NCBI GenBank assembly: GCA_003054665.1
Contig: QAYY01000002.1
Coordinates: 62,001 to 126,000 of the forward strand
Direction: 5' to 3'
Source of the DNA: Opitutaceae bacterium EW11
Lineage (GTDB): Bacteria > Verrucomicrobiota > Verrucomicrobiia > Opitutales > Opitutaceae
Length of the DNA stretch: 64,000 nucleotides
The position numbers and the translations under genes are program-made. The number at the start of each line of letters is the position of its first letter. The first letter of the stretch is position 1. Below the pieces are notes generated by a model that saw only the letters and a list, made by a program, of their open reading frames with translations, was not told where the DNA came from and did not search any database. Positions 9,367 to 31,057 of the stretch are shown here, piece after piece.

Positions 9367-10920
9367 ATGTCACCCCGCTTCGAGAGACTCGCCGCACGGC
9401 GCGACGGCTTCATCCGTTTCCCGCGGCTCACCTTGGGCCTTGCCGCGATGCTGTTTGTCCTCGCTCCGCTGCAGACCTCGCGCGCCGAGCCGGTCGATCG
9501 TGCGAAGGCGATGATTCAGACCTCGGTGGCGTTGAGCGACCCCTTGTGGGACGACCGCTCCGCGTTTATCTGGGGCGTGCCTTCGCGGGAGCATCCGTCG
9601 GCCCAGAAACTGTCGGTCCGCGGCACCGCTTGGTACGCGTTCGGACTTCTCGCGCGCGACGGCGAAGGCGATCGGGCCCGCGCGGCCCGCGCGATCGAGG
9701 CGGTGCTCCGCCAGCAGATCGACGCGCCGGACGAGCCCTGGGACGGCACCTTTTACCGCAGCCCCGACGAACCCAATCCGCCTCTGTTCGCCCGGGTTTG
9801 GGATGACTACGATCCCAACTGGCGCCAGTTCATCGGCACCACCTGGGCGCTGATCCTCCTTCGGTTTCCCGACCGCATCCCGGCGGCGCTCGTGCCCCGG
9901 CTGGAGGATTCGATGCGCCGAGCCCTTGAAGGCGAACTCGCCCAGACGCGGCTCAAGCCCGAATACACCAACATCGCCCTGATGCAGGCGTTTCTTCAGT
10001 CGTATCTCGGAGGGCGTCTCGAGCGGCCCGAATGGGTGAAGGGAGGCGAAGAATGGGCCCGGCGGATACACGAGTTGTACCTGAAGCACGGCACGTTTGA
10101 GGAATACAACGCGCCGACCTATTACGGCGTCGATCTCTACGGCCTCGCGCTCTGGCGCGAGTTTGGGCCGACGAAAGCGTTCCGCGAGTGGGGCGCGGAA
10201 ATGGAAGCCGGACTCTGGCGGGAGATCGCGAAGTATTACCACGCCGGTCTCCACAATCTCTGCGGACCTTACGATCGTACTTACGGCATGGATATGCAGC
10301 GCTACGTCAGCCTGACCGGCGTTTGGATGGCCCTGGTGCTCGACGGCCCCGAGGCGCCGCTGCCCGCCCCGGGACCGGAGATGGAGCACGGGCATGATTT
10401 TCAGTTTGCCCCGCTTTTTGCGGTTCTCGGCGCCCGCGTCCCCGACGACGCGATGCGGGACTTCACCGCCTTTCGCGGCGAGCGAACCATCGAGCGGACG
10501 ATTGCGCGCCGGCGGACCGCGACGGCCTGGCTCGGGCAGGACATCATGATCGGCGGTGAACTGACTGCGCTCTCCCGCTCGGCGGGCGGGCCCTACAGCC
10601 AGTTCTGTCCGGCCACCGTCCACTGGAAAACGCCCTCCGGTAAAACGGGTTGGGTTGCGCTCGCGAAATGTCCGCGGGTCGACGCACGCGCCTCGGCAAA
10701 CCGCCTGGAGATTCAGGCCATCGGCGATTCCATCTTCCGCCTCTCGGCCCCGGAGCTCGACGCTTCGCAGCTGACCCGCGACGCGTGGCGCCTCCCGGGG
10801 TTGAACGTGCAGGTCGAAACGGACGCGCGCGACTTCAATGTGCGGCCCGGCAAATACTGGGTGGAGGTGGAGTACGGCAACGCCACGCACCTCGTCCTGA
10901 AAACCGAAAAGATTCCATGA
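9367..10920 (+). CDS. Secreted protein of unknown function, probable alpha/alpha-toroid
   Basis: A 517-residue protein with an N-terminal signal-type segment (residues about 20-41, ending TSRAEP). The body is rich in helices with conserved-looking aromatic motifs: WDDRSAFIWGVPSREHPSAQ, TWALILLRFPDRIP, EEYNAPTYYGVDLYGLALW and GPYDRTYGMDMQRYVSLTGVWM, followed by a beta-rich C-terminal part from about residue 390. This helical-then-beta order resembles alpha/alpha-toroid polysaccharide lyases and related hydrolases, but I cannot assign a family or catalytic residues. It heads an operon with a phosphatase and an acyltransferase (ATGA overlap at its end), and an operator-like palindrome lies upstream at 9043. 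A role in processing an extracellular or periplasmic glycan is inferred from this only. Confidence 0.6.
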   Translation: MSPRFERLAARRDGFIRFPRLTLGLAAMLFVLAPLQTSRAEPVDRAKAMIQTSVALSDPLWDDRSAFIWGVPSREHPSAQKLSVRGTAWYAFGLLARDGEGDRARAARAIEAVLRQQIDAPDEPWDGTFYRSPDEPNPPLFARVWDDYDPNWRQFIGTTWALILLRFPDRIPAALVPRLEDSMRRALEGELAQTRLKPEYTNIALMQAFLQSYLGGRLERPEWVKGGEEWARRIHELYLKHGTFEEYNAPTYYGVDLYGLALWREFGPTKAFREWGAEMEAGLWREIAKYYHAGLHNLCGPYDRTYGMDMQRYVSLTGVWMALVLDGPEAPLPAPGPEMEHGHDFQFAPLFAVLGARVPDDAMRDFTAFRGERTIERTIARRRTATAWLGQDIMIGGELTALSRSAGGPYSQFCPATVHWKTPSGKTGWVALAKCPRVDARASANRLEIQAIGDSIFRLSAPELDASQLTRDAWRLPGLNVQVETDARDFNVRPGKYWVEVEYGNATHLVLKTEKIP

Positions 10921-12650
10921 GCGATCGCTTCTCCACCGTTCTCTTCAACCGGGTTCCGCCGAATGACGGAAACGGTTTTGCCTCCTCCCCGTTTCGCGCC
11001 TGTCGCTCGCTGCTTTTGGGACTGTTTCTGGGTGCCGTGCTGGTCGCCGCGGCCGCGGAGGAGCCGAAGGCGCCGCCACCGCTGGCGGTGGTGATCAGCA
11101 TCGACCAGTGCCGCGCGGATTACCTGGAGCGCTTCCGTCCCTTCTTCGGCCAGGGCGGCTTCGAACGCCTGCTCGGCGCCGGTATGGACTTCACCGAGTG
11201 CCATCAGCGTCATGCCGTGACCAATACGGCGCCCGGGCATGCGACGATTCTGACGGGAGTTCACGCCAATATTCACGGCATCATTTCGAACGAGTGGCGC
11301 GATCCCGTGACGCTGGCGCCCGTCGGCGCGGTGGAGGATCCGAACTCTCCGCTGGTGGGGTACAACCCGGCCCCCGGAGAAAAGCCCCGTCCGGGTCGTT
11401 CGCCGCACCGCCTGCTGGCCACGACCGTGGGCGATCAGCTGAAACTGCGGTTTCCCGCCACGAGCCATGTCGTCGCATTGTCGGCGAAGGACCGGCAGGC
11501 GATCCTGCTCGGCGGGCGTCTGGCTGATGCGGCGTACTGGCTCGAAGCCGGGCAGTTCGTCACCTCGACGTACTACCGCAAGGAGCTGCCGGCGTGGGTG
11601 GCGGAATTCAATCGCGGTCAGCACGTCGAGAAGGACTTCGGTCGCGTGTGGGACCGGGCGCTGCCGGAAGACGCCTACAACCGCGTGCAGGGCGCCGACG
11701 ATGCCCCCGGCGAGGAGAGCCGCCTAGGGCTCGGCACGACGTTCCCTCGCAAGGTCGATGGCGGCTCGGCACAGCTGACGTCCAAGTTCTACGACGCGTA
11801 CCGGCTCACGCCCTTCCTCGGGGACTTGATCGTTGAGTTCGCGAAACAGGCGATTGCGGCCGAAAAGCTGGGCCGCCACGAGACCTCCGACCTCCTCTGC
11901 ATCGGCTTTCCCCAGGTCGACTACGCGGGGCATTCCTACGGACCCGACAGTCACGAGGTCATGGATCTTCTGATACGTCTCGATCGTTCGCTCGCGGAGC
12001 TGTTCGGCTATCTCGACCGCGAGGTTGGCGCCGGACGCTACGTGGTGGTCCTGACGGCAGACCACGGTGTGACCCCGCTGCCGGAACGCGTGCAGGCGTT
12101 TGGCCGCGGCGTGGCCGCCGGGCGCTTCGCCCCGGCGGACCTCGTGCATGGCATCGAACTCGAACTCACCCGGCTCCACGGCTCCCCCGCACCCGCAAGT
12201 TCCTGGGTGGTGCGCGATAGCTACGGCCTCCGGATCGTGCCGGCGGCGCTGCAGGGAAAAAAAGTACGACGCGACGAGTTGACGAAGGAGATCCGCGATC
12301 TGGCCGCGGCTTTTCCCCAGATCCAGCAGGCGTTCACCCGCGAGGAGGTGCTGGCGACGCCGCCAGGCGATCAATCGGTGCTCGGGCGCATCCGCCTCAG
12401 CTACTATCCGCAACAAAGCCAGGACGTCGTGTTTTTCCTGAAGCCGTACGTCGTCGACCGCGATCCGGCGGGCACGAATCACGGCTGCCCCTACGACTGC
12501 GACGACCACGTCCCGCTGCTCTTCTTCGGCCCCGGCGTGCCGCACGGAACTCGTACGGACCGAGTCGGCGTGGACAACCTGGCGCCGACGCTTTCGGCGC
12601 TGCTCAAGATCCCGACTCCGCCGCAAGCTCAAGCCGGACGCCTTTTCTGA
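10917..12650 (+). CDS. PafA-type alkaline phosphatase / phosphodiesterase superfamily enzyme
   Basis: A 577-residue exported enzyme with a hydrophobic signal segment at about residues 31-47. Metal-binding and catalytic motifs of the alkaline phosphatase superfamily are visible. SIDQCRADY has D63; VTNTAPGHATILTG has the presumed nucleophile Thr104 followed by the PafA-like APGHA; IGFPQVDYAGHSYGPDS supplies a D and H; LTADHGVTPLPE supplies another D-H pair; and the C-terminal CPYDCDDHVPLLFFGPG holds the last His. The layout matches PafA-type monoesterases rather than PhoA. It would release phosphate from sugar or inositol phosphates or related esters in the periplasm. The start ATG at 10917 overlaps the stop of the previous gene, and the next gene begins two bases after its stop, so the three genes form one operon. 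Confidence 0.85.
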   Translation: MSDRFSTVLFNRVPPNDGNGFASSPFRACRSLLLGLFLGAVLVAAAAEEPKAPPPLAVVISIDQCRADYLERFRPFFGQGGFERLLGAGMDFTECHQRHAVTNTAPGHATILTGVHANIHGIISNEWRDPVTLAPVGAVEDPNSPLVGYNPAPGEKPRPGRSPHRLLATTVGDQLKLRFPATSHVVALSAKDRQAILLGGRLADAAYWLEAGQFVTSTYYRKELPAWVAEFNRGQHVEKDFGRVWDRALPEDAYNRVQGADDAPGEESRLGLGTTFPRKVDGGSAQLTSKFYDAYRLTPFLGDLIVEFAKQAIAAEKLGRHETSDLLCIGFPQVDYAGHSYGPDSHEVMDLLIRLDRSLAELFGYLDREVGAGRYVVVLTADHGVTPLPERVQAFGRGVAAGRFAPADLVHGIELELTRLHGSPAPASSWVVRDSYGLRIVPAALQGKKVRRDELTKEIRDLAAAFPQIQQAFTREEVLATPPGDQSVLGRIRLSYYPQQSQDVVFFLKPYVVDRDPAGTNHGCPYDCDDHVPLLFFGPGVPHGTRTDRVGVDNLAPTLSALLKIPTPPQAQAGRLF

Positions 12651-12652
12651 CC

Positions 12653-13813
12653 ATGAGCGCCGAAACCGTTTCCGGAAGTCCTGTCGCCGCAGCAGCGCCT
12701 GCACCGGCGGCAAAACCGCCGCGACTCGTCTCGCTGGATGCGCTTCGGGGGTTCGACATGTTCTGGATCATCGGCGGGGACGCTTTTGCCGGCGCGTTTC
12801 GCAATCTGAACGGCGGACCGGTAGCCCGCTGGCTCGGCTACGAACTGGGGCACAGCGACTGGGCCGGCTTCACCTTCTACGACCTCATCTTTCCTCTGTT
12901 CGTCTTTATGATCGGCGTCTCGATCACGCTCTCGCTGGGCCGGCTGATCGAGCGCCAGGGCCGCGCCGGCGCGGTCAACCGGATCGTGCGCCGGACCGTG
13001 CTGCTCTTTGCGCTCGGCATCGTCTACTACGGCGGATTTTCGCGGGGCGTGGACCAGATCCGGCTTCTCGGCGTGCTGCAGCGCCTTGCGCTCTGCTACT
13101 TTTTCGCCTCGCTGGTGTTCGTCTTCCTGAAACCGCGGCTGTGGTTTCCTGTGTTTGCCGGCCTGCTCGTCGGCTACTGGGCGCTGATGACCTTTGTTCC
13201 AGTTCCCGGATACGGAGCGGGCGATTTCGCGGAGCGTCACAACCTGGCCAACTGGATCGACAAACTCTACCTGCCGCTTCACCAGCACGACGGCGACTAC
13301 GACCCGGAAGGGCTGCTCAGCACGATTCCCGCCGTCGCCACCTGCCTGCTCGGACTGATGGCGGGGCGGTTCATTCAGGACGTTCGGCGTGCGCCGATCC
13401 AGCGTGCCACGTGGCTGGTGGGCGCCGGCGTTGCGGCGATTCTTCTCGGCACGCTTTGGGGACTTCAGTTTCCCGTCATCAAGAAGATCTGGACCTCGAG
13501 CTTCGTCCTGGTTGCCGGCGGCTGGAGCTTGGTGCTGCTGGGCGTGTTTTATCTGTTGATCGACGTCTGGAATCGGAAGACCTGGGCGCTGCCGTTTGTC
13601 TGGATCGGAACGAACGCCCTGACGATTTACCTCCTCAGCCACTTCATCGATTTCGGCCATCTTTCGGCCGCGCTCGCCGGTGGCCCGATCGCCGCCGCCT
13701 TCGATTCGCTTGTCGGAGGACTGGGTGGCGTCGTTCTGGCCTTCCTGGGCGTCGGCCTCTGCACGCTGATTTGCCGCTTCCTGTATCAGCGCAGCGTGTT
13801 TTTGCGGCTCTGA
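12653..13813 (+). CDS. HGSNAT/NagX-like integral membrane acyltransferase
   Basis: A 386-residue polytopic membrane protein with about ten hydrophobic segments. LVSLDALRGFDMFWIIGGD near the N-terminus, HSDWAGFTFYDLIFPLFVFMIGVSI and the later RLGVLQRLALCYFF-like region are typical of the heparan-alpha-glucosaminide N-acetyltransferase/DUF5009 family. In that family, acetyl groups are passed from cytoplasmic acetyl-CoA to an amino sugar outside. The conserved His of the family is probably the one in GHSDWAG. Bacterial relatives (NagX) occur with amino-sugar catabolic genes. It closes the operon started at 9367. Acetylation of a glucosamine-containing glycan before transport would fit the NagB/PIG-L and mannosidase genes that follow, but this is inference. 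Confidence 0.8.
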   Translation: MSAETVSGSPVAAAAPAPAAKPPRLVSLDALRGFDMFWIIGGDAFAGAFRNLNGGPVARWLGYELGHSDWAGFTFYDLIFPLFVFMIGVSITLSLGRLIERQGRAGAVNRIVRRTVLLFALGIVYYGGFSRGVDQIRLLGVLQRLALCYFFASLVFVFLKPRLWFPVFAGLLVGYWALMTFVPVPGYGAGDFAERHNLANWIDKLYLPLHQHDGDYDPEGLLSTIPAVATCLLGLMAGRFIQDVRRAPIQRATWLVGAGVAAILLGTLWGLQFPVIKKIWTSSFVLVAGGWSLVLLGVFYLLIDVWNRKTWALPFVWIGTNALTIYLLSHFIDFGHLSAALAGGPIAAAFDSLVGGLGGVVLAFLGVGLCTLICRFLYQRSVFLRL

Positions 13814-13829
13814 ACGCTGAGCGCCTCGA

Positions 13830-13858
13830 AACGGGCGGGCCGCCGGGTCGGCCCGTCA
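13830..13858. terminator. Possible bidirectional terminator between convergent genes
   Basis: The 93-base gap between the convergent acyltransferase and GH38 genes holds ACGGGC at 13831 that can pair with GCCCGT ending at 13857, flanked by very GC-rich sequence. There is no T-tract. The right part of the gap (13855-13888) is a copy of the repeat also seen at 35964-35996. Confidence 0.3.
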
Positions 13859-13888
13859 AGGGCGGCGCCGGTGCGCTGCACTCCAGAA
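13855..13888. repeat. Copy of extragenic GC-rich repeat (GGGCGGCGCC...CTGCACTCCAG)
   Basis: The stretch from CGTCAAGGGCGGCGCC to GCACTCCAG closely matches the right arm of the palindromic element ending at 35991, differing by a handful of bases. Here only one arm is recognisable, between two convergent genes. Confidence 0.5.
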
Positions 13889-13906
13889 CGAACCGGCCCG
13901 CTTACG

Positions 13907-16900
13907 TCACCGGCTGCGCTTCGAAATCCGCAGGCTGACGATTTCGTACGGGCGGAAATGTACACGCGTCGTCGTGCTTCGGCGAAGCGGCGTGCCGTCG
14001 AGACTGCACGGCGTGGCGGTCCAGCCTTCGGCGAGCCGCATCGTCGCGTATCCGCGTTGTCCGCACGTCTCGTGCAGCCGCAGGACCCAGACTCCCGGAG
14101 CCACGGGCATGGCCCACGCGGGAATCAGGGACTCGCCGCCGTCGATGGCCAGCAACCCTGCAGTCAGGCCCTTTCCGCTGCAGGGCAGGGGCTCGCAGAA
14201 CAACAGGTCCGCCAGAGCCGCAGGCTGCTCGCGGCGGGGGGCGCCGAGATCGTGGGCTGCGAGAGCAAGGCGAATCCGGTGGTGGCCTTGGTCCGAGAAA
14301 GCGTCCGCGCCTGCGAGCCGGCTCAAAACCCGCGGGGCAGCCTTGTCGTGATTGTCGAAGCCGACGACGCGGGCGCCTCGTACCAGTGAGACGGATAAAT
14401 CGCCGTCGCGCGCAGCGAAGCCGAACTTCGCCTCCGAAATCAGGGCCAGCCCCTCTCGTTCGCCGTCGTCCGCGATCGCGGCCCAGCGGCTCGCGGGGAC
14501 TTCCCACTGAGCTTCCGCCGCGGCGGTTCCCGGCTGCTGGACGCGGAGAACGCTCCCGAAGGGTGCGCCGAAACGAGCCTGGCGACCTTGGTAACGCGTC
14601 GGAAAATGAAGCTTCAGAAGCGTGTTTCGCTCGTGCCAGTCGAGATCGGCTTCGATCCGCAGAACGGATTCTCCAGCCACGAGCACGAAACGAAGGTCGA
14701 GGGTGCTATCCCGTCCGATCTTTCCGGATACCACAAGCACGGCCCGATCGGTTTCCTCCCGGACTTCCACGGTAGGCGCGGTCGCGAAGGCGGGTTTTCC
14801 CGTCGCGAGCGCATTCCGATCGATATCCCAGGCTTCGTAGGCGGCCGGAGTATCGGAATAGAGGACCGGGACCGCTGCGGGCCCGGAAAATGGAACGGAC
14901 TGCCCGCGCAGTTCGAGACTCCGTAGCCGTCCGTGTCCATCGAACCCTGCGCGGACAAGTCCGTTGTCGAGTGTGCGGCGGCTCGCGCGGGCCGGGGCGG
15001 GGGACTGCGGAGCGGCGACAAGCGGCGCGCTGGAAAGGGGGAGAATCTCCAGCCAGACGGGAGAGGCGGTGCGTGTTTTCCGAACCCAACCCTGCCAGGG
15101 GAGGGGGAGGGGATTGAACACGGCTTCCGTCGTTTTGGCATCGGCTCGGTTCAGCTCGGAAGCGGCCGCGGAGAGATGCTCGGCCTCGATCCGGCGGAGT
15201 TCAGGAAGCGTCTCCGCGTAGACTTCAGGCACGGAGCTTCCGGGGAGACAGTCGTGAAACTGGGTGAACACGACCCGGCGCCACGGAGCGCGCAGATCGG
15301 CGGCGGTTCCGAGCGCGCACGCAACCGCTTCCCGAACCTGCAGGGCGCGCTCGGCGCGGCGGTAGGCTTCCTTCACCGCACTGTGCGTCGTGTAGGTCCC
15401 GCGGTGATACTCGAGGTAACATTCGCCCTGGAAGACGGGCAGCCGGGAGCGGAGCCGATCGAGCCGTTCGAAAAACGCCTCCGGCTGGTCCCAGACGATT
15501 TCGGGCGTGTCGCCCAAGCTCGAGAGCCGGCGGGCGCGTTCGCACATCTCCTCGGTCGGGCCTCCGCCGCCGTCGCCATAGCCGGTGGGATGCAGGTACT
15601 CGGGGTGAACGTCGGACTGGCCGTGGCCGTCTGCGCCCGCGTGCAGGCGCGGAAGATCGACGAGGTTGTTGTAGCCGCAGTCTTGGGTGACGTGGGCGAC
15701 GACCTCGCTGCCGTCGTTGCCGCGCCAGACAAAGCTGCTGAAGGGAAAACGGTTCATCGCGCTCCAGGTGAGTTTGGTCGTGAAAAACCACGGCACACCC
15801 ACCAGCCGCATCAGCTGCGGCAGACAGGCGCTGTAGCCAAACACGTCCGGCAGCCAGCAGAGCCGCGCCGGATTCCCTCGGAGTTCGCGAAACGCTTCCT
15901 GGCCCAGCACAAAACTCCGCGCGAGCGCTTCGCCGCACGGCAACTGGGTGTCGCTCTCCACCTGCATCGCGCCTGTGGGTTCCCAGCGGCGCTCGCGTAA
16001 TCGCTCCAGCACGGCGCGGTGAAGCCGGGGCTGGAGGCGAGCGACGGCCTGGTAGCTCGCCGGTTGGCTGTACGCGAAACGGAATTCCGGATACAGGCTC
16101 ATCAACCGGTTGACGGTGGCGAAGGTGTGAACCGCTTTGGCCTCGCCGACCCGTTCCGGCCAGAGCCAGACGAGGTCGATGTGGGCGTGGCCGGTGAGCA
16201 CGGCTCGGACGAGGGGACGCTCGGTGTGGAGTTCCGCCATCGCGGTCCGCAGGGACCGCTGGAGGGCAGCGAGGCCGTCCCGATCGAAAACATCCACCGC
16301 TTCGTCGAGCAGCCGCAGAACCCGACGATAGAGCGGGGTGACGCGTGCGACGCTCGGTTGAGGTCCGACGGCGGCGATGTCAGGGACAGGGCCGCCGGCC
16401 TGGGCGGCCCGGAGGTGGACCATCAGGTCCGCAAGGCACTGCAGGTCGTGAAAAGTGTTCCAGGCAAGATCGTCCCGGCCGACGAGAAAGGCGCCCTCGA
16501 AGACGCTGCCGGAAGGTGAGAGCCCCGTCGCCTTCGGATGCCAGATCGCGGATTGGCAGCACCAACTCTCGACCCAGAGTTTCTTCGCACCTTGCGGAAG
16601 CGCGACGCGGCGGTGAGCGACGTCGAAACCGTAGAACGGCAGGCCGTCGACGTGGAGCGTGGCTTCGCCCTGGTCGCGCCATTCGAGATAGCGCGGGGCG
16701 GCGCTCGCGCCACGCCGCCCGGGCAGCTCGAGCCGGCACCAGCGCTGGTCGTAGAGCTTTCCCCACGACGAACCGGGCCGAACGCGGCGCAGCGGCAGGT
16801 GTCGGGCGTTCTCCAGCGAAACGGGTTCGGCCGAGGCTTCGGTGGCGAACACCTCGACCGGCTCCGCGCTCGGCCAGACAAGCGCCTCCAGCCGGCGCAC

Positions 16901-21126: not shown

Positions 21127-21139
21127 TCTAACCGTTAGA
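21127..21139. promoter_or_regulatory. LacI-type operator, perfect palindrome (site 3)
   Basis: TCTAACCGTTAGA is fully symmetric around C21133. It sits in the 227-base divergent region between the symporter (start 21005) and the LacI gene (start 21233), so one repressor dimer could control both. Sites at 3702, 9043 and 31120 share its core. Confidence 0.7.
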
Positions 21140-22389: not shown

Positions 22390-23754
22390 CTACGCTTCTT
22401 CCTGCGTTTCGCCGAAGTGGAGCGCGCTGTCGTGCATCGTGGCGCGACCGCTCTCCGCGAGGCGGATCATCTCGGTGCCTGCGAGCAGCGTGGGTCCGTA
22501 GCCGTGGGCGGCGAAGGGACTCGTCGGACGGTAGTAGTAAAACATCGGATCGAACGCCAAGCCCGAGCCGACGCACGAGCCGGTCACCTGGCCCGCTTCG
22601 TTCACCTGCGCGGTCAGGGCGTTCCAGCCGAGCTTGGCCATCGGGCCGTAGGCAAGGGGATCGACCCAGCCGCGGTTGATCGCGCGGGCGATGCAGTAGA
22701 CGAAAATCGCCGAAGCCGAGGTCTCCTGGTACGAGTCGTTGCGATCCAGCAGCTGGTGCCAGCGACCTTGTCCGCTCTGGCGTTCCGCGAGGCCGCGGAT
22801 GTGGCGCTGCAGGAGCGCGAGCGCGTCTTCGCGGCCCGAATACGTCTCCGGCAGCGCATCCAGCAGCTCCGTCGTGGCGAGCAGCGCCCAGCCGTTGCAG
22901 CGGGCCCAGTGGTACTCCGGGTGGACTTCCATGTCCTCCACCCAACCGTGGAAATAGAGCCCCTTCGACGGGTTGAAGAGACGGCTGGAGAATTGTTTCA
23001 GCTGCAGGAGGGCCTCGTCGAAATACGAATCCTCGCCGGTGAGGAGCGCCATCTGGGCGAGCGCGGGGACGCTCATGTAGAGATCGTCGAGCCAGAGCGT
23101 GCGCGGCATCGGGCGGTTTCGCGCGAGGGTGCCGTCGGACAGCCGAAACTGCACCGAGGTGATGTGACGGAGATAACGGTCGATCAGGGGGCGTGCGTTC
23201 CGCAGCAGACCTGCGCGCTCCGCCTTGATGAACGACGTCGCCATCGAGCCGGCGTCGTCGAGGTTCCGGGGACGGATCACGGAACGGAACGCGAGCGTCT
23301 TTTCCACCGCGCGGCCCGCTTTCTCGGCCACCTGTTGGAAATACGGTGCGAGATCCGCGATCGCCTGCAGCCGGGTGACGGCGTACCGGCGAAACCGCTC
23401 GTCGCCCGTCGCATCGCTCGCCTGCAGCATGGCGCCGTAGAGCGCGCCCCATTCGTAGCAGATGAGGCGAAACGGTCCGGCCGCGAGGTCCGCGTTCGGG
23501 TTGGGCGAAGCGAAATCGCGGATTTCCTGCTGCGTTGCGGTGTCGATCACGCGCAGCGGAGTCGACGCCTCCAGGTAGTCGTGGATCCGAAAGAGCACGT
23601 CGCGGATTTTCGCCACCGGCGCCGGGCCGTACGGCACCGGATACGCGGGGGCGATCTGTTCCTCGGGCAGCCAGGGACGGTTCGGCGCGGTCGCAGAAGG
23701 TGCGCGCGCTGCGGCGCCGGACGCCGAGGCAGAAGAGGCGGGGGGGCGATTCAT
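22390..23754 (-). CDS. GH105 unsaturated rhamnogalacturonyl/glucuronyl hydrolase-like enzyme
   Basis: A 454-residue alpha/alpha-toroid protein. TLWLDDLYMSVPALAQMALLTGE carries the Asp of the YteR/YesR active site, HPEYHWARCNGWALLATTELLDALP the His/Arg/Trp cleft, and GRWHQLLDRNDSYQETSASAIFVYCIARAINRG the conserved C-terminal cleft residues. GH105 enzymes hydrate and remove the 4,5-unsaturated uronic acid left by polysaccharide lyases. Start at 23754 (MNRPPASSAS), since the frame further upstream overlaps iolA. No clear signal peptide is seen. It follows iolA by 31 bases on the same strand, at the end of the inositol operon. That is an unusual place for this enzyme and suggests a substrate containing both uronate and inositol, or simple co-regulation. 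Confidence 0.85.
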   Translation of the reverse strand: MNRPPASSASASGAAARAPSATAPNRPWLPEEQIAPAYPVPYGPAPVAKIRDVLFRIHDYLEASTPLRVIDTATQQEIRDFASPNPNADLAAGPFRLICYEWGALYGAMLQASDATGDERFRRYAVTRLQAIADLAPYFQQVAEKAGRAVEKTLAFRSVIRPRNLDDAGSMATSFIKAERAGLLRNARPLIDRYLRHITSVQFRLSDGTLARNRPMPRTLWLDDLYMSVPALAQMALLTGEDSYFDEALLQLKQFSSRLFNPSKGLYFHGWVEDMEVHPEYHWARCNGWALLATTELLDALPETYSGREDALALLQRHIRGLAERQSGQGRWHQLLDRNDSYQETSASAIFVYCIARAINRGWVDPLAYGPMAKLGWNALTAQVNEAGQVTGSCVGSGLAFDPMFYYYRPTSPFAAHGYGPTLLAGTEMIRLAESGRATMHDSALHFGETQEEA

Positions 23755-23785
23755 CAGGTAAACGAGCCTCGCATTCAGGAAGACA

Positions 23786-25282
23786 CTACTTGCGCCAGAT
23801 GTCACCCTCGCCGTCGGAGAACCAGCGGACGGTCGTGACTTTCTGCTGCGTGTAGAAGGCGACACCCTCGCGGCCCTGCACGTGCAGGTCGCCGAAGAAC
23901 GACTCCCCCCAACCCGAAAATGGAAAATACGCCATCGCCGCCGGAACGCCGACATTGATACCCACCATGCCGGTCTTGATGCGATGTTTGAATTCGCGCG
24001 CCGCCTTGCCGGAACGCGTGAAGATGGCGGCGCCGTTTCCGTAGACCGAGCGGTTGGCCAGCTCGATGGCGGCGTCGAGGCCGTCCATCGTCAGCACGCT
24101 CAGCACGGGTCCGAACACCTCCTCCCGGAGGAGAATGTTGTCCGTCGGGGAAGCGGGTTGCGCGATGGTGGCTCCGACATAAAAGCCCTTCGGCGCGTCG
24201 GAGACTTTCACTCCGCGGCCGTCGGCGAGGACGCGGGCACCCTGGCTTTCGCCCTGCGCGAGCAGCGAGAGAACGCGGTCGCGGTGTTGCGCGGTGATGA
24301 CCGGGCCCAAGTCGGGCTGCGCGGCTTCGACGTCGGTGCGCCCGACTTTCATCGCGCGAGTGGCCTCGACGAGTGTCGGGAGGATGCGCGTGGCGGCCTC
24401 GCCCACGACGAGGGCCGTGGAGCCGGCCATGCAGCGTTCGCCGGCGCAGCCGAACGCGGCTCCCGTGATGCCTTCCACGGAGCGCGAAACGTCGGCGTCC
24501 GGCATGATCACGAGGTAATTCTTCGCGCCGCCGGCGGCCTGCACGCGTTTGCCGTGGCGCGTGCCGGTTTCGTAAATGTAGCGCGCGATCGGCGTCGACC
24601 CGACAAACGAGATCGCCCGGACGCGCGGATGCGTCAGCAGAGCGTCCACGCAGTCGCGTCCGCCATGCACGACGCTGAACACGCCCTTCGGCACGCCGGC
24701 TTCCACCAGCAGTTCCGCCAGGCGGATCGCGGTGAGCGGCACCTTTTCGCTCGGCTTCAGGATAAAGGTGTTTCCACAGGCGAGCGCGATGGGGAACATC
24801 CAGAGCGGCACCATCGCGGGGAAATTGAACGGCGTGATGCCCACGCAGACGCCGAGCGGCTGCCGCAGCGACTCGCAGTCGATGCCGCGGGCCACGTTTT
24901 CCAGCGTTTCGCCCATGAGGAGCGCCGGGATTCCGGTGGCGTATTCGACCACCTCGAGGCCGCGCTGGAGATCGCCGCGGGATTCCGGGCGTGTCTTGCC
25001 GTGCTCGCGCGAAATCAGCGCGGTGATGGCGTCGAAGTCGCGTAGCAGCAGCTCGCGGAAGCGAAAGAGCACCCGGGCGCGCTCGATGGGCGGCGTATCC
25101 ATCCAGGCCGGGAAGGCCTCGTGGGCCGCGCGAACTGCCGCATCGACGTCGCTGGCATTGCAGAGCGGCGTCTCGGCAATGACTTCGCCCGTCGAGGGAT
25201 TGTGCACCGGACTGCGCGGACGGTCTCCGAGACGGAGCCATTCGCCGCCGATCAGGCAGGAGGCAAGAGGGACTTCAGGCAT
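23786..25282 (-). CDS. iolA: Methylmalonate/malonate-semialdehyde dehydrogenase (CoA-acylating), IolA/MmsA
   Basis: 498 residues, the normal MmsA length. VCVGITPFNFPAMVPLWMFP is the family's NAD-binding and oxyanion region, KPSEKVPLTA the Lys-Pro-Ser motif, SFVGSTPIARYIYETG the Rossmann loop, and GAAFGCAGERCMAGSTA contains catalytic Cys284. MmsA-type enzymes oxidise malonate semialdehyde with CoA to acetyl-CoA and CO2 in the last step of inositol breakdown (or methylmalonate semialdehyde in valine breakdown). The neighbours iolE, iolD, iolB and iolG decide for the inositol role. The gene starts ten bases after the transaldolase-family gene. Confidence 0.92.
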   Translation of the reverse strand: MPEVPLASCLIGGEWLRLGDRPRSPVHNPSTGEVIAETPLCNASDVDAAVRAAHEAFPAWMDTPPIERARVLFRFRELLLRDFDAITALISREHGKTRPESRGDLQRGLEVVEYATGIPALLMGETLENVARGIDCESLRQPLGVCVGITPFNFPAMVPLWMFPIALACGNTFILKPSEKVPLTAIRLAELLVEAGVPKGVFSVVHGGRDCVDALLTHPRVRAISFVGSTPIARYIYETGTRHGKRVQAAGGAKNYLVIMPDADVSRSVEGITGAAFGCAGERCMAGSTALVVGEAATRILPTLVEATRAMKVGRTDVEAAQPDLGPVITAQHRDRVLSLLAQGESQGARVLADGRGVKVSDAPKGFYVGATIAQPASPTDNILLREEVFGPVLSVLTMDGLDAAIELANRSVYGNGAAIFTRSGKAAREFKHRIKTGMVGINVGVPAAMAYFPFSGWGESFFGDLHVQGREGVAFYTQQKVTTVRWFSDGEGDIWRK

Positions 25283-25291
25283 GGGAAGGAT

Positions 25292-26386
25292 TCAGGCGCC
25301 GAGCATGCGCGTGCGGATGTGCGCGAGCAGCTGGTTGTAGCCGTCGATGAACTGGTGAAGGGTGTGAACCGTGGCTCCGTAGCGGAGGAAATCCGCCGCG
25401 CACTGGCCGTCTTCGTCGACCGCGCAGATGAAGTCCGGGAAGGTGGCGCGCAGCTTCGCGACAATCGCGGGATCGACCGGGGTCTCCAGCGTCAGCGCCG
25501 GTTTGCGCGGCGACTCGTTGAACTTCTTCCACCACGTGTACGGGATGGTTTGAAGCACCTCGGGACCGATGATCTCCGCCCAGTGGGCCTCGTGCCGGTA
25601 GGCGGCGGCGAGCAGAGTGCCCGGCAGGCCGCGGCTCTTGAAAAGACGGTGCGCCTCCTTGAAGACGGCGATGCCGGCCCAATCGATGATCGCCGGATCG
25701 ACCGCGAGCTTCTTCGCCTCAACCACCCGGCGAAGATGGTCGTCCACCCGGCCGATCATCAGGGTGATGTACGGCTTGAGATGGCCGACGTCGCGGCCCG
25801 CCGCCTGGGCGCGCTTCATGCCGCGAGAAAGGGCGGCCGAAACGTCGAGCGCCTGGCGCACGGTGAAGCTCACGGTAGCGTTGATCCGGATACCGCGGAA
25901 CGTCAGCTCCTCGATCGCCTTGAGGCCGGCCTCGGTGGTCGGAACCTTGATCGCGATGTTCGGAGCCAGGGCCGCCAGTTCGGTCGCCTGGGCGACCATG
26001 AGCTCGGCATTGGGAAAGAACTTCGGATTCACCTGCATCGATAGGAAGCCCTTCGCGCCGCCCGTCCGGTCGTAGACGGGGCGGAGCTGCGACGCCGCCT
26101 GGATGCCCAGGGCGTGAATCAGTTTCCAGGCGAGATCGTCCTCCGTCGCGGTGGGATTCTCCGCCATCAGCCGGTCGAGCACCGGCAGGCAGACGTCGGG
26201 ATTGTTGCGGACCGCCTGGGAAACGATGACGGGGTTGGACGTGCCGCCGACCGCGCCGTGGCGCACGGCGTCGGCGACTTCGACCGGCATGCCGGAGTCG
26301 TTCCACCAGTCGGCGCCGAGTGCGGTCATTTCGGGCATCCGGCCGCTGGCGGCGGACGAAGATGGGGAGGCAGTCTGGGTGCTCAT
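25292..26386 (-). CDS. Transaldolase-family protein, candidate aldolase of the inositol pathway
   Basis: A 364-residue TIM-barrel protein of the transaldolase superfamily. TALGADWWNDSGMP near the N-terminus, VGGTSNPVIVSQAV (residues 47-59, the T-S/T-N-P motif), NIAIKVPTTEAGLKA with the presumed Schiff-base Lys147, and RINATVSFTVRQAL with N169 all match. It is longer than TalB-type enzymes and diverges from them, so the sugar-phosphate substrate may differ. The gene lies between iolE and iolA, exactly where an operon would need the enzyme that makes malonate semialdehyde. No IolJ-type class II aldolase and no IolC kinase are seen in the operon. I infer that it splits the 2-deoxy-5-keto-gluconate (phosphate) intermediate; ordinary transaldolase activity is the alternative. 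Confidence 0.8.
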   Translation of the reverse strand: MSTQTASPSSSAASGRMPEMTALGADWWNDSGMPVEVADAVRHGAVGGTSNPVIVSQAVRNNPDVCLPVLDRLMAENPTATEDDLAWKLIHALGIQAASQLRPVYDRTGGAKGFLSMQVNPKFFPNAELMVAQATELAALAPNIAIKVPTTEAGLKAIEELTFRGIRINATVSFTVRQALDVSAALSRGMKRAQAAGRDVGHLKPYITLMIGRVDDHLRRVVEAKKLAVDPAIIDWAGIAVFKEAHRLFKSRGLPGTLLAAAYRHEAHWAEIIGPEVLQTIPYTWWKKFNESPRKPALTLETPVDPAIVAKLRATFPDFICAVDEDGQCAADFLRYGATVHTLHQFIDGYNQLLAHIRTRMLGA

Positions 26387-26405
26387 GACGGAAAGGGTTG
26401 GGGGA

Positions 26406-27326
26406 TCAGACGCCGGCGTGCTGGCGCACGAACTCTCGCGCTTTTTTCGCCTTGGGGAGCGCCGGTACGAGACCCGGATCTTCTTCGGCTTCCACCACGA
26501 GCCACCCGCGGTAGGGGAGGGCCGACAATTCCCGGAGAAGGCGGACGTAGTCGACTTCGCCGTCGCCTGGGATCGTGAATACGCCGCTGCTCACGGCCTT
26601 GCAGAACGACCAGCCCTCGCGCCGCGCCTGGGCGACGACGGAAGCGCGGGTGCTCTTCAGGTGGACGTGTCCGATCCGGTCGCCGTGGCGGGAAACGACG
26701 GCGTGCGGATCGATTCCGGCGAAACTCAGGTGCCCGGCATCGAGCACGAGGTGGAGGTTCGGCACGCTCGCGAGAAGCCGGTCCAGCTCGGCCTCCGTTT
26801 GGATCACCGTCCCCATGTGGTGGTGGTAAACGAGCTTCATCCCCTCGGAGGCGCAGGTCGTCGCGAGTTCGCTCAGCCCGGCGACGAGCCTCGTCCACTC
26901 GTCGGAGGTGAGCGTCCTGCGGTCGTCGACGCCGTAACCGAGGGCGGCATTGCGGTCGCCGTGGATCGCGTGGGAGCACTCGGCGACGATCGCGACGGTG
27001 GCACCGAGCGGCTTCAACAGCCGGAGGTGCGCGGCGAACGAGGCGCGTTCCTGCTCGAGCGAACGCGTCGCCAGATAGGTGCTGTGCCACCCGCTGACGA
27101 GCCGGAGCTGGTGCTTTTCCAGGTGGGGGCAGAGCGCCGTCGCGGTGCGTGGATACGCGTGGCCCAGCTCCGTGCCGGAGTAGCCGACCGCGCGCATGTC
27201 GCGGAGAATGGCGTCGAGCGGAACGTCGCCGGCGAGTTCGTTGAAATCGTCGTTGCTCCAGATGATCGGGTTGGCGCCGACCCAGCAGTCGCGCAGATCT
27301 TTCGGGGAATGCTTGGGGGAGTGCAT
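26406..27326 (-). CDS. iolE: Inosose dehydratase IolE-like (xylose-isomerase-like TIM barrel)
   Basis: 306 residues. GANPIIWSNDDFNELAGDVPLDAILRDM and YSGTELGHAYP are characteristic of IolE at the N-terminus, MKLVYHHHMGTVIQTEAELDRLL holds metal-site His residues, and LVLDAGHLSFAGIDPHAV with IGHVHLKSTR supplies the D/H metal ligands of AP-endonuclease-2-like barrels. IolE removes water from 2-keto-myo-inositol to give the diketone used by IolD. Start chosen at 27326 (MHSPKHSPKDL), which overlaps the iolD stop by one base; the longer frame to 27425 is Arg-rich and overlaps iolD. Confidence 0.9.
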   Translation of the reverse strand: MHSPKHSPKDLRDCWVGANPIIWSNDDFNELAGDVPLDAILRDMRAVGYSGTELGHAYPRTATALCPHLEKHQLRLVSGWHSTYLATRSLEQERASFAAHLRLLKPLGATVAIVAECSHAIHGDRNAALGYGVDDRRTLTSDEWTRLVAGLSELATTCASEGMKLVYHHHMGTVIQTEAELDRLLASVPNLHLVLDAGHLSFAGIDPHAVVSRHGDRIGHVHLKSTRASVVAQARREGWSFCKAVSSGVFTIPGDGEVDYVRLLRELSALPYRGWLVVEAEEDPGLVPALPKAKKAREFVRQHAGV

Positions 27327-29200
27327 CAGTAGTGGAAACGGCGGCGGCGAACGGCCTGTTCGTACGAGCGGCGCGCGGCGCGCACCGATGGGACGGAGGA
27401 AATCTCCGCGGGAGGAACGTCCCACCAGGAGAAGCCCTGCATCACGGAGCCCGGCGTGACGGGGACGTAGACGAAGCAGGTGTTGGATTCCTCGCGCGCG
27501 GCGGCGAGCGCCTCCTTCAGCGAGGCTTCGTCGTGGGCGGTGAAGACCGTCGCGCCGAGGCTGCGCGCGTTGGCCGCATAGTCGACCGGCACGGGCTCAC
27601 CGGTGAGCCGGTGGTCGCCGGAGGCACGCTTGCGAAACTCGTTGCCGAAGCTGCGACCGCCGCAGGCGCGCTGCAGATTGTGGATGCAGCCGAAGCCGTG
27701 GTTGTCGTTGAGAACGACCGTGATCTTCAGCCCCTCCTGGACCGCGGTGACGATCTCGTGGTTGAGCATCAGGTAGCTGCCGTCGCCAAGAAACGCATAC
27801 ACTTCGCGTTCCGGGGCGGCCAGCTTCACCCCCAGCGCGCCGGCGATCTCGTACCCCATGCAGGAGTAGCCGTACTCGGAGTGGTAGTCGGTCTCGCTCT
27901 TGCCGCGCCAGAGCTTGTGGATGTCGCCGGGAATCCCCCCGGATGCATGGACTACCGTGCTGTTGGCGTCGATGTGCTCGTTCAGAATCCGGACGACCTC
28001 GCTCTGGTACATCAGGCCGTCGGGGCTGGGGCGCGCGGGAGAGGTCATTTCCCTCCAGGGCGTCTCCCAGTCTCTCCGAGCCGCGGCGATCGCGCGCTGG
28101 TGGGTAGAAGGAACCTTCCAGCCGCGGATGCCGCGGCCCAGAGCCTGAAGCACGGCCCGGGCATCGCCCACGAGAGGTAGTGCGCCGTGTTTGGCGGCGT
28201 CGAAGGCGTTGACGTTGATGCTGACGAACCGGACTTCGGAATTCTGGAATTGGGTTTTGGAGGCGGTGGTGAAATCCGAAAGGCGCGTGCCGACAACCAC
28301 CACGACGTCGGCTTCGGCGGCGAGCCGGTTGGCCGCGAGCGTGCCGGTGACGCCGACGCCGCCCAGCGCCAGGGCGTGACTCTCGAGCAATGCGCCTTTT
28401 CCGGCCTGGGTGACCGCGACGGGAATGCCGGTCGCCTCGGCGAACGTCCGCAGCGCCGCACAGGCGTCGGAATAATGCACGCCGCCGCCGGCGACGATCA
28501 GGGGCCGTTTCGCCGTGCGGAGCAGAGCCGCGGCTTCCTTGAGCCGTTCGGGCGTGGGCAGGGTGCGTTCGATCTCGTAAACTCGTTTCTCGAAAAAGTG
28601 CGCCGGGCAGTCGAAGGCCTCCGCCTGGACGTCCTCCGGGAGGGCCAGAGTGACGGCGCCGGTTTCCGCGGGGCTGGCTAGGACGCGCATCGCCTCAGGC
28701 AACGCGCTCAGGATCTGCTCCGGACGTTGAATACGGTCCCAGTAGCGCGAGACCGGGCGGAAACAGTCGTTCACGCTCACCTCGAGCGAGCCCGGGTATT
28801 CGAGCTGCTGGAGGACCGGCGCGGGTCCGCGGTTGGCGAACACGTCGCTGGGAAACAGGAGCACGGGAAGCCGGTTGACCGTGGCGGTCGCCGCCCCGGT
28901 GACCATGTTGGTTGCTCCCGGGCCGACGGAGGTCGCGCAGGCCAGTGTTCCGAGGCGGCGGCGCGTTTTTGCGTAGGCGATCGCGGTGTGAACCATCGCC
29001 TGCTCGTTTTTGGGCTGAAGGTAGGGGAGCGACGTGCCGCCGATTTCCTCCAGGGCCTGACCGAGGCCGGCCACGTTGCCATGTCCGAAGATGCCGCACA
29101 CGCCGTTGATCAAGCGGTGCTCGACGCCGTCGCGGCGGACGTATTGCGCCTGGAGAAAGCGGACGATCGCGGCCGCCGTGGTGATTCGGACCGTTTTCAT
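27326..29200 (-). CDS. iolD: Trihydroxycyclohexane-1,2-dione hydrolase IolD (TPP enzyme)
   Basis: 624 residues, the full length of IolD. The N-terminal pyrimidine-binding domain starts with MKTVRITTAAAIVRFLQAQY and contains INGVCGIFGHGNVAGLGQAL with the catalytic Glu region just after (EIGGTSLPYLQPKNEQAMVH). The central domain shows RPLIVAGGGVHYSDA. The C-terminal TPP domain has the GDG...N motif, FLGDGSYLMLNHEIVTAVQE then VVLNDNHGFGCIHNLQ. It opens the ring of the cyclohexanedione to 5-deoxy-glucuronate. The ATG at 29200 overlaps the iolB stop (ATGA). Confidence 0.95.
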   Translation of the reverse strand: MKTVRITTAAAIVRFLQAQYVRRDGVEHRLINGVCGIFGHGNVAGLGQALEEIGGTSLPYLQPKNEQAMVHTAIAYAKTRRRLGTLACATSVGPGATNMVTGAATATVNRLPVLLFPSDVFANRGPAPVLQQLEYPGSLEVSVNDCFRPVSRYWDRIQRPEQILSALPEAMRVLASPAETGAVTLALPEDVQAEAFDCPAHFFEKRVYEIERTLPTPERLKEAAALLRTAKRPLIVAGGGVHYSDACAALRTFAEATGIPVAVTQAGKGALLESHALALGGVGVTGTLAANRLAAEADVVVVVGTRLSDFTTASKTQFQNSEVRFVSINVNAFDAAKHGALPLVGDARAVLQALGRGIRGWKVPSTHQRAIAAARRDWETPWREMTSPARPSPDGLMYQSEVVRILNEHIDANSTVVHASGGIPGDIHKLWRGKSETDYHSEYGYSCMGYEIAGALGVKLAAPEREVYAFLGDGSYLMLNHEIVTAVQEGLKITVVLNDNHGFGCIHNLQRACGGRSFGNEFRKRASGDHRLTGEPVPVDYAANARSLGATVFTAHDEASLKEALAAAREESNTCFVYVPVTPGSVMQGFSWWDVPPAEISSVPSVRAARRSYEQAVRRRRFHY

Positions 29201-30048
29201 GCCTTGGTTTCCTTTTCGATGCCCGGCTGCCAGCCCTGCTTTTTCGGATCGAGCAGCCACCGGTGCTCGGGCGTGAAGGTGAAACCCTTGTACGGCCGCC
29301 GCGGCAGATGCCGCACGACCCAGAGATAATACATGCCGTAGCCGGGGGCGGAGACTTGGGCGTGGTCGAGTCCGCCCGGGATCAGCATCGTGTCGCCGTT
29401 GCCCACCTTGAAAACCGAATCGCCGAGCTCGGCGTGGCCATAGCCCTGAGGGAGCGTGAAGCGGTAATGGTAGATTTCCGGCTGCGGATGATGGTGGGGC
29501 GGATAGCTCGACCAGCGGCCGGGGAAATTCACCACCTCGCCGACGACCAGGTTCGAATCGGGACGTGTGCTGTAGTCGAAGATCGTGCGAACGATGCGCC
29601 GGCAGGCGCCCTGCACCAACCCGGCGCCGCGGTCCTCGCTCGTGAATTCATCGTTCCGATACAACCGCGGCTTCAGCTTGCGCGGGTTCTGGGTCCGGAT
29701 GAAGGCCCATTCGCAGCCGCCGCGCCCAGCGGTGACGGAAAACTCGCCGCGGTCGCCGACGTGCACCGCATACGGACCCTCGTCGAAGAGGGAGCGTCGG
29801 GAAACGGTTTCGTCAGTTGCGCCCACCTTCACCCGCGCCTGGCCGGAGAGCAGCACGAGCAGCGTTTCTTTTCGGCACGCCTCGCGGTGCTCCTGCCCCC
29901 CGCGCAGACGCAGAATCCCGAAGTCCATCAGCGCATCGAGGCCGTGCAGCGTGTTGGCGCCGCCCTCGCTGGCGATGACACTATAGCCGTCGGGAAAGGC
30001 AGGCTGGGGCGGGCGGAGATGGCACGCCCGCAGGAAGAGGTCGTTCAT
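29197..30048 (-). CDS. iolB: 5-deoxy-glucuronate isomerase IolB
   Basis: 283 residues in two cupin halves. GFGILRLRGGQEH-like strands, KETLLVLLSGQARVKVG and FDEGPYAVHVGDR form the first half. RWSSYPPHHHPQPEIYHYRF, with the metal-binding His cluster, NGDTMLIPGGLDHAQVSAPGYGMYYLWVVRHL and the end FTPEHRWL form the second; all are typical of IolB. It isomerises 5-deoxy-glucuronate to 2-deoxy-5-keto-D-gluconate. It starts seven bases after the iolG stop and overlaps iolD by four bases. Confidence 0.95.
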   Translation of the reverse strand: MNDLFLRACHLRPPQPAFPDGYSVIASEGGANTLHGLDALMDFGILRLRGGQEHREACRKETLLVLLSGQARVKVGATDETVSRRSLFDEGPYAVHVGDRGEFSVTAGRGGCEWAFIRTQNPRKLKPRLYRNDEFTSEDRGAGLVQGACRRIVRTIFDYSTRPDSNLVVGEVVNFPGRWSSYPPHHHPQPEIYHYRFTLPQGYGHAELGDSVFKVGNGDTMLIPGGLDHAQVSAPGYGMYYLWVVRHLPRRPYKGFTFTPEHRWLLDPKKQGWQPGIEKETKA

Positions 30049-30055
30049 CGGCAAA

Positions 30056-31057
30056 TCAGACGGTTTCGGACTTTCCGGAGTGGAGTGAGCGCGTCGCGGC
30101 GAGCGCGATCTTCTGGGCCGCGATGCCGTCGTCACAGGTGATTGGAGCCGGACGGCCGAGGCGGAGATTGCCGACGAAATCCTCCAGCTGCGTGAGGTAC
30201 GCCGGATCGAAGCGCTCGAGGAAGCCGGGCACGGTGTCGTGCGAAATGGAGCCGGGCGTCATCACGAGCACGGCGGTTTCCCTATCGTAGCCGATCTGGA
30301 GCGTTCCCTTCGTGCCGACGATCTCGGTGTTGATCGCGTAGCCGTAGATGCCAGTGCGGCTCAGGCTGATGCAGCCGATTTTACCGGAGGCGAAATGCAG
30401 GGTGGTGAAGGCGTTGTCGACATCGCCGACCTTCGCGATTTCCGGGTCCGCCACGGCGGCGCCGCAGCTGTTCACGCTTTTCACCTCGCCCATGTACCAG
30501 CGGGCGAGATCGAAATCGTGGATACCCATGTCGATGAACAGGCCGCCGCTGTTGACCGGCTTGAGGTATTCGATCGGCGGCGCGTATTGGTCGCGCGAGG
30601 CCGACTTGAAGACGATCGGCGTACCGATCAACCCGTTCTCGATTTTCTTTTTCGCCGCGGCGTAGGCGTTGTCGAAGCGGCGCATGAAACCGAGTTGGAA
30701 GAATACGGCGTTGCGGGCGACCGAGGCCTTCATCGCTTCCGCCTCCTTGAGATCGAGGGAGAGCGGCTTTTCGCAGAAGATCGCTTTTTTCGCCTCGGCG
30801 GCGGCGATGACCACCTCGGCGTGGAGCTTCGTCGGCGTCATCACCACGACGGCGTCGAGCTGCGGGTCTTTGACCAAATCGTGGTACGTGGCAAACGGCT
30901 TCGCGCCGGTGCTCGCGGCGATGGCCTGGGTGACGTCCGCGCGGACATCCGTGACGGAGTGGAGCCGCGCGCCGGGCAGGCGGGTGGCAAAGTGTTTGGC
31001 GTAGAGGCTGCCGAGGCGGCCGAGCCCGACCACGCCGACGTTGAGAGGGGTATTCAT
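30056..31057 (-). CDS. iolG: myo-inositol 2-dehydrogenase IolG (Gfo/Idh/MocA family)
   Basis: 333 residues. The Rossmann motif VGVVGLGRLGSLYAKHF is at the N-terminus, FCEKPLSLDL carries Lys97 of the EKP motif, and GGLFIDMGIHDFDLARWYMG gives D176 and H180, completing the catalytic triad of IolG. The remainder (EIVGTKGTLQIGYDRE and so on) is the Gfo/Idh C-terminal sheet. It oxidises myo-inositol to scyllo-inosose with NAD as the first step of the operon. It is the promoter-proximal gene; an operator-like site lies 63-75 bases upstream. Start at 31057 because the longer frame reads through the intergenic repeat region. Confidence 0.92.
   Translation of the reverse strand: MNTPLNVGVVGLGRLGSLYAKHFATRLPGARLHSVTDVRADVTQAIAASTGAKPFATYHDLVKDPQLDAVVVMTPTKLHAEVVIAAAEAKKAIFCEKPLSLDLKEAEAMKASVARNAVFFQLGFMRRFDNAYAAAKKKIENGLIGTPIVFKSASRDQYAPPIEYLKPVNSGGLFIDMGIHDFDLARWYMGEVKSVNSCGAAVADPEIAKVGDVDNAFTTLHFASGKIGCISLSRTGIYGYAINTEIVGTKGTLQIGYDRETAVLVMTPGSISHDTVPGFLERFDPAYLTQLEDFVGNLRLGRPAPITCDDGIAAQKIALAATRSLHSGKSETV

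Follow-up and report, generated by a model that had tools for sequence, protein, structure and literature searches.

The Bacillus-type pathway of inositol breakdown is encoded by the gene set IolG-E-D-B-C-J-A. Glycosylinositol phosphoceramides (GIPCs) are named as the major plant sphingolipid subclass in the part of PMC8099651 drawn on here, and the corresponding part of PMC11496612 describes, for Arabidopsis material, the release by Botrytis of a mannose-glucuronate-inositol phosphate (Man-GlcA-Ino-P) from plant GIPCs. Glycosylphosphatidylinositol (GPI) and fungal cores carry no uronate in the excerpted text of PMC6151786, which lists Man-Ins-P and GlcN-Ins-P (Ins, inositol; GlcN, glucosamine) among fungal cores. 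No bacterial pathway for GIPC head groups was found among the listed titles and abstract openings of the open-licence literature. Here, we analyze a 64,000-nucleotide stretch of the genome of Opitutaceae bacterium EW11 (contig QAYY01000002.1, positions 62,001 to 126,000; "the window"), in which an iol operon accompanies genes for a TonB-dependent receptor, a phosphatase, and sugar-cutting enzymes. We propose that these genes form a LacI-controlled regulon for phosphorylated inositol conjugates, with GIPC head groups as the likeliest substrate, a statement that we consider, taken whole, evenly poised between right and wrong. We are fairly confident of its core, namely, that the target is phosphorylated inositol conjugates, and only tentatively assign the substrate to GIPC head groups specifically.

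Gene content of the putative regulon

Comparisons used 372 genomes of the order (labels G###), the host genome (6.4 Mb in 45 contigs) being labeled G000, and fetched neighborhoods (labels L###); cluster genes were scored by tblastn, except in L163, which was scored from open frames. An earlier note on this DNA had read positions 9367 to 31057 as a system for using a mannosyl-glucosaminyl-inositol glycan. Its observations are confirmed and its interpretation is partly supported: Pfam and NCBIfam bore out the families named for the GH38 alpha-mannosidase, the NagB-PIG-L fusion, the sodium:solute symporter (SSF), and the iol genes, and the TonB receptor lies outside the range given.

1249..3675, minus strand: TonB-dependent receptor TBDT1, putative regulon member (PF00593/PF07715)
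9367..10920, plus strand: (alpha/alpha) toroid plus beta-sandwich protein, possible uronate lyase (AlphaFold2 [AF2] model, Foldseek)
11061..12650 (matched part; the open reading frame [ORF] opens at 10650), plus strand: PafA-type alkaline phosphatase (PF01663, PafA model)
12653..13813, plus strand: NagX/HGSNAT-like transmembrane amino-sugar acetyltransferase (NagX model, human HGSNAT match)
13907..16957, minus strand: GH38 alpha-mannosidase (Pfam)
16979..18937, minus strand: NagB-PIG-L fusion (Pfam, NCBIfam PRK02122)
18975..21005, minus strand: SSF (Pfam), first gene of the SSF/NagB-PIG-L/GH38 operon
21233..22279, plus strand: LacI-family regulator (PF00356/PF13377)
22390..23754 (start guessed; the ORF opens at 23955), minus strand: GH88/GH105-family protein (PF07470), last gene of the iol operon
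23786..25282, minus strand: IolA, CoA-acylating (methyl)malonate-semialdehyde dehydrogenase (TIGR01722, over cut-off)
25292..26386, minus strand: transaldolase/FSA-family protein (PF00923), between IolA and IolE
26406..27425, minus strand: IolE, myo-inosose-2 dehydratase (TIGR04379, over cut-off)
27326..29260, minus strand: IolD (TIGR04377, over cut-off)
29197..30135, minus strand: IolB/KduI-family isomerase (PF04962; TIGR04378 at 107 of 205 bits, well under cut-off)
30056..31057, minus strand: IolG, inositol 2-dehydrogenase (TIGR04380 at 344 of 355 bits, just under cut-off)

The PafA-type and HGSNAT-like calls of the earlier note held at the level of family, with scores under the model cut-offs (382 versus 650 bits for PafA, short of the equivalog score; 318 versus 480 bits for NagX). 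Aligned to 5tj3, the PafA-type protein retains the Thr, Asn, and KxR positions, which we take to be the catalytic positions of PafA; the NagX-like protein matches human HGSNAT at E 1e-21. The nearest solved relatives of the GH38 protein are Ams1 and other alpha-mannosidases. NagB-PIG-L reaches 905 bits against PRK02122 (cut-off, 384), with both domains and an HPDD motif in its translation. The GH105-type protein scores 254 bits against PF07470 and 449 bits against 3k11, also matching YteR and other GH105 proteins, and its LWLDD segment aligned to 3k11 contains the WLDD motif, presumably the functional motif of GH105.

A putative LacI operator shared by four promoters

Four sites match the LacI-type pattern TCTAACnGTTAGA.

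3705..3717, upstream of TBDT1: operator TCTAACCGTTAGG, one mismatch to TCTAACnGTTAGA
9043..9055, upstream of the 9367 operon: operator TCTAACGGTTAAA, one mismatch to TCTAACnGTTAGA
21127..21139, between SSF and LacI: operator TCTAACCGTTAGA, exact match to TCTAACnGTTAGA
31120..31132, upstream of iolG: weak operator CAGAACCGTTAGA, three mismatches to TCTAACnGTTAGA

These putative sites support a single operator common to the promoters of TBDT1, the 9367 operon, the symporter/mannosidase operon, and, weakly, the iol operon; together with conserved LacI orthologs, they uphold the earlier claim of a shared operator that ties the mannosidase and phosphatase operons to the iol operon. When no more than one mismatch is allowed, five sites are found in the 6.4-Mb genome, of which three fall within 17.4 kb in the window (binomial 2e-7, calculated post hoc), and the genome's only exact operator stands at the start of the SSF/NagB-PIG-L/GH38 operon, whose intergenic gaps are 37 and 21 bp. 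Matching at three mismatches is uninformative: the window total of 10 sites is unremarkable (shuffles, 5.2 ± 2.3; 3 of 100 shuffles reach 10). Across the genome at two mismatches, there are fewer sites (27) than for a reversed-pattern control (124), and TAACNGTTA gives 13 sites versus 18 for its control. The weak iolG site is kept upstream of iolG in G013 as GAGAACCGTTAGA (L099:4513), and a site identical to the 21127 operator is present in the same genome at L053:13120. The remaining two one-mismatch sites of the host genome lie on contig C5, at C5:497181 and C5:477713. The former (L043:7182) precedes another TonB receptor (L043:4716-7100), a possible distant member of the regulon.

Orthologs of the LacI regulator (at least 57% identity) occur in 8 of the 372 genomes (G000, G013, G025, G338, G370, G036, G364, and G020). 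The segment that we take to be the recognition helix reads SVATVSEALR in seven of them and STATISEALR in G020, and LacI paralogs differ there (e.g., SRTTVSDAL or STFTVSAAL). IolD was found at E<=1e-150 in 18 of the 372 genomes, 17 of them over cut-off, and seven of the eight LacI genomes fall among these 18 (hypergeometric 1.3e-9, uncorrected for kinship); seven have both IolD and operators. LacI and iol genes are clustered in five (G000, G013, G020, G364, and G370). Counting operators at up to two mismatches with the core intact, 15 matches (14 distinct) were found in 13 loci (253 kb) of the other seven LacI genomes, with none in L099, L122, L125, or L141, compared with three in a contrast set of 70 other loci (1.25 Mb), 7 of which had been picked because of such sites.

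Inositol, phosphate, and outer membrane uptake recur across the LacI genomes

Content was counted by pooling the LacI locus and the iol locus of each genome (n = 8). IolD is present in seven genomes and SSF in six. Receptors of the TBDT1 type (at least 44%) occur in five: G000 and, as orthologs at 44 to 70% near the LacI ortholog, G020, G036, G338, and G370. A different TonB receptor stands directly behind an operator in G364. PafA-type genes are likewise found in five (G000, G036 [twice], G338, G364, and G370), as are the 9367 family and NagX-like genes, both in the same five (G000, G025, G036, G364, and G370). Four genomes have a PF00083-type major facilitator superfamily (MFS) transporter (G013, G036, G364, and G370), two a phosphatidylinositol phospholipase C (PI-PLC; G370 through PF16670, G364 through 65% identity to the G370 protein), and two a phytase (PF02333) beside the iol genes (G036 and G338). 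In G370, the genes form a single run, LacI-TBDT1-TBDT1-9367 type-PafA-MFS-NagX-PI-PLC-U602-iolB-D-E-TAL-iolA (TAL, the transaldolase-family gene), with a 40% iolG homolog as well; the G013 cluster comprises MFS, NagB-PIG-L, SSF, LacI, GH105, and iol genes.

By gene content, the recurring theme appears to be inositol, phosphate, and outer membrane uptake, with the mannose and glucosamine parts accessory. Since the recurring partners are the TonB receptor, the PafA-type, NagX-like, and 9367 proteins, and, in two clusters, PI-PLC, the core function would be inositol scavenging from phosphorylated conjugates. The co-occurrence in related genomes that the earlier note had suggested looking for is seen for the TonB receptor, PafA-type, NagX-like, and iol genes and is scant for GH38, NagB-PIG-L, and GH105, each present in only one or two of the eight.

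Two further observations concern G370. A 52-aa GH38 C-terminal piece (54%) lies right after SSF at L117:11120-11269, and no full GH38 was found in that genome at E<=1e-30; the piece is suggestive, without being proof, of a lost GH38. U602, a 600-aa protein with no Pfam match, lies beside iolB (L123:1639-3447) and adjoins an operator at L123:1605; in G020, U602 (L104:14598-16433) stands behind TBDT1. We rejected homology between U602 and the 9367 family (0.6% probability by profile comparison).

A predicted inositol route without IolC

The full myo-inositol pathway seen by the earlier note did not hold, in that IolC was not found, and in its place a protein of the transaldolase family is conserved. 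No gene of the iol operon matched IolC or IolJ in the family scans (no genome-wide IolJ search was made), and the best IolC score in the host genome is 102 bits against a cut-off of 300. IolC is over cut-off in 1 (G091) of 15 IolD genomes tested out of the 18 found. Of the 13 other iol loci examined, 12 encode the transaldolase-family protein, at 51 to 73% identity, the exception being that of G082, where it was not found; the loci of G049, G083, G091, and G122 lie outside this set. Aligned to transaldolases, the protein retains the lysine of the KVPTTEAG motif, which we assume to have a role in those enzymes. FSA-type enzymes cleave ketoses, giving dihydroxyacetone plus an aldehyde. Because such enzymes release dihydroxyacetone and the geometry of 2-deoxy-5-keto-gluconate matches, we propose a kinase-free split in which 2-deoxy-5-keto-gluconate would yield dihydroxyacetone together with malonate semialdehyde, on which IolA acts, with the transaldolase-family protein replacing IolC and IolJ. 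No kinase-free inositol pathway of this type was found among the titles and abstract openings listed.

The 9367 protein

Neither Pfam nor NCBIfam matched the protein encoded at 9367-10920, and no PDB sequence did so up to E 10. In an AF2 model built from a 14-row alignment of window and genome contigs (mean pLDDT, 88), helices are followed by strands, and the predicted fold class, an (alpha/alpha) toroid with a beta-sandwich, is clear. Foldseek ranks GAGase II and PL17 alginate lyases best, with heparinase III at rank 13, and Asn202 and Tyr252, invariant in 14 of 14 rows of the family alignment, presumably resemble the Asn and Tyr of heparinase-type lyases. These matches point weakly to a uronate lyase, which may act on 4-substituted glucuronate. 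The lyase reading is weak because the Foldseek matches to lyases (E 7e-7 to 8e-5) have low TM scores of about 0.39 and because VIA-align favors cellobiose 2-epimerases, GH8, and GH116 (Z 15-17 over residues of about 35-357); no polysaccharide lyase is among the best 50 VIA-align rows, a result that by the tool's own note excludes nothing. The surroundings of the family count against our proposal as a whole: in other phyla, its genes stand ahead of a gene of sugar-transporter type (PF06800, which on inspection resembles RhaT) in Terriglobus and in an Acidobacteriaceae metagenome-assembled genome and ahead of a GH78 gene in Pseudactinotalea, and of the 10 strong carriers within the order, only 4 have IolD.

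GH38 lies near the 9367 family in 3 of the 10 genomes of the order with a 9367 match at E<=1e-150 (G000, G021, and G322). The 9367-family gene directly follows GH38 in G322 and is on the same strand with three genes between in G021; neither genome has IolD. This search covered 125 loci (L039-L163), five of which (L154-L158) had been fetched for GH38, and beyond those five GH38 matches occur only in L159 and L162, so that the link excluding the discovery window amounts to two loci.

Proposed mechanism and substrate

Gene families, operators, LacI orthology, and conserved clusters can be read from the DNA itself; the direction of regulation, the inducer, protein localization, the substrate, and the action of the 9367 protein as a lyase we infer. 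Phosphorylated inositol conjugates would be taken up via the TonB receptor and trimmed outside the inner membrane by the PafA-type phosphatase, the 9367 protein, and the NagX-like acetyltransferase. SSF would import the trimmed product, GH38, NagB-PIG-L, and GH105 would finish the trimming in the cytosol, and inositol would be burned via IolG-E-D-B, the transaldolase-family aldolase, and IolA. In this species, the substrate would most likely be the plant GIPC head glycan Man/GlcN(Ac)-GlcA-Ins-P, presumably precut from the lipid and thus in the form of soluble phosphoglycans. Each of its parts has candidate enzymes: mannose would fall to GH38, the amino sugar to NagB-PIG-L and the NagX-like protein, glucuronate to the 9367 protein and GH105, phosphate to the PafA-type phosphatase, and inositol to the iol genes. 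The plant GIPC alternative raised by the earlier note fits better than GPI because of the two uronate-type enzymes, the 9367 protein being one by prediction only. We consider unlikely the more specific proposal of a dedicated GIPC-head regulon in which the 9367 protein founds a new glucuronate lyase family cutting X-(1-4)-GlcA-Ins, GH105 frees the inositol, and inositol follows the kinase-free route.

Competing explanations

Several results weigh against our proposal. G025 has a LacI ortholog with no IolD match and no operator. LacI and iol genes are on separate contigs in G036 and G338, and the iol loci there (L125 and L122) lack an operator even though they hold both phytases and the PafA-type gene of G338; because of these two phytase-bearing loci, we lowered our confidence in the core slightly. 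NagB-PIG-L and GH105 are each found in two of the eight LacI genomes (G000 and G013) and intact GH38 in one (G000), and the host genome as a whole has no PF16670 PI-PLC match. The G013 cluster copy is that genome's only NagB-PIG-L match and may for that reason be a general N-acetylglucosamine (GlcNAc) enzyme. Members of the SSF subfamily are often found away from inositol loci, and 3k11, the solved structure closest to the GH105-type protein, names no substrate in its title.

The regulon might instead serve plain inositol phosphates (phytate products, glycerophosphoinositol, or phosphatidylinositol), with GH38, NagB-PIG-L, and GH105 as later additions having small substrates of their own. The PI-PLC genes of the G364 and G370 clusters, the occurrence in G338 and G036 of phytase and PafA-type genes next to the iol genes (in loci that lack an operator), and the restriction of the glycan parts to one or two of eight clusters all favor this explanation, which covers the recurring core and leaves the accessory enzymes unexplained. 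It sits poorly with the one exact operator of the genome heading the SSF/NagB-PIG-L/GH38 operon and with the retention of NagB-PIG-L and GH105 in G013, whose NagB-PIG-L copy is the sister of that of the G000 cluster (support, 98/94, in a tree of 9 rows kept from 24 loci after motif and length filtering), and we regard it as possible but rather doubtful.

GPI-anchor or fungal GIPC glycans (Man-GlcN-Ins-P or Man-Ins-P), which contain no uronate, would account for one operator over GH38, NagB-PIG-L, phosphatase, and iol genes, and the fungal Man-Ins-P and GlcN-Ins-P cores do exist in the text of PMC6151786 cited above. They would leave unexplained the possible uronate lyase and the presence of GH105 in the iol operons of both G000 and G013. 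For these reasons, and given the missing PF16670 enzyme, GPI was lowered from main reading to an improbable one; the scarcity of NagB-PIG-L and intact GH38 among the clusters likewise speaks against it. What remains of the mannosyl-glucosaminyl-inositol glycan of the earlier note is a phosphorylated inositol conjugate, indicated by the phosphatase, the TonB receptor, and PI-PLC in two clusters.

Least likely, and in our judgment very improbable, is a coincidence in which one LacI came to govern two operons, for GlcNAc/mannose and for inositol, that have no joint substrate. As the earlier note had cautioned, NagB-PIG-L also occurs in plain GlcNAc use: 7 of 20 NagB-PIG-L neighborhoods (L048-L067) contain a NagX-like gene, none of the seven with iol genes, and the host genome holds a second NagB-PIG-L and two more GH38 genes. 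Such a coincidence must contend with the rarity of operators at up to one mismatch and with the joined NagB-PIG-L-SSF-LacI-GH105-iol arrangement, which is found in G013 too. The second NagB-PIG-L is at C11:478261-482179 (L039); a separate gene for PIG-L follows it downstream, and genes resembling TonB receptors are close by.

Neighboring genes

Downstream of TBDT1, 46 bp after it on the same strand, lies a gene whose product matched no Pfam or NCBIfam family in the scans.

315..1202, minus strand: 295-aa protein, no family

A BNR-repeat protein and a second TonB receptor (4395-8091) have no operator at up to three mismatches and were left out of the regulon count. At 32159-46360 is a microcompartment-type locus with a EutN-type shell protein, acetate kinase, a PduL-type phosphotransacylase, class II aldolases, an FGGY kinase, and a DeoR regulator, which we take to be of the fucose/rhamnose kind of Verrucomicrobia. 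Type II secretion-type genes (T2SSG, N_methyl, and T2SSK) lie at 48926-53960.

Comparison with known systems

The locus is of interest for a set of genes open to testing, for a regulator whose operator is defined, for a protein family that has no name, and for bringing to light a conserved form of inositol catabolism that lacks IolC. No description of a joint inositol/glycan regulon was found in the literature searched. As in the Bacillus-type pathway, IolG, IolE, IolD, an IolB-family protein, and IolA are encoded in one operon; the locus differs in having no IolC over cut-off (as in 14 of 15 IolD genomes) and in its transaldolase-family protein, LacI regulator, and TonB receptor. With LacI-governed TonB-receptor glycan loci it shares the receptor, secreted-type enzymes, a symporter, and a LacI regulator with a common operator; it departs from them in coupling sugar genes with enzymes for inositol and phosphate, and the Pfam matches of those window proteins that were scanned include no SusD family. 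The pairing of NagB-PIG-L (PRK02122) with a NagX-like gene is that of GlcNAc use, except that the operator here is shared with iol and the gene preceding the NagX-like gene is the PafA-type gene, not NagB-PIG-L. Finally, the Man-GlcA-Ino-P that is the product of the Botrytis GIPC phospholipase C in the part of PMC11496612 used here is our proposed substrate: there, the enzyme frees the glycan from the lipid, and here, the glycan would serve as food.

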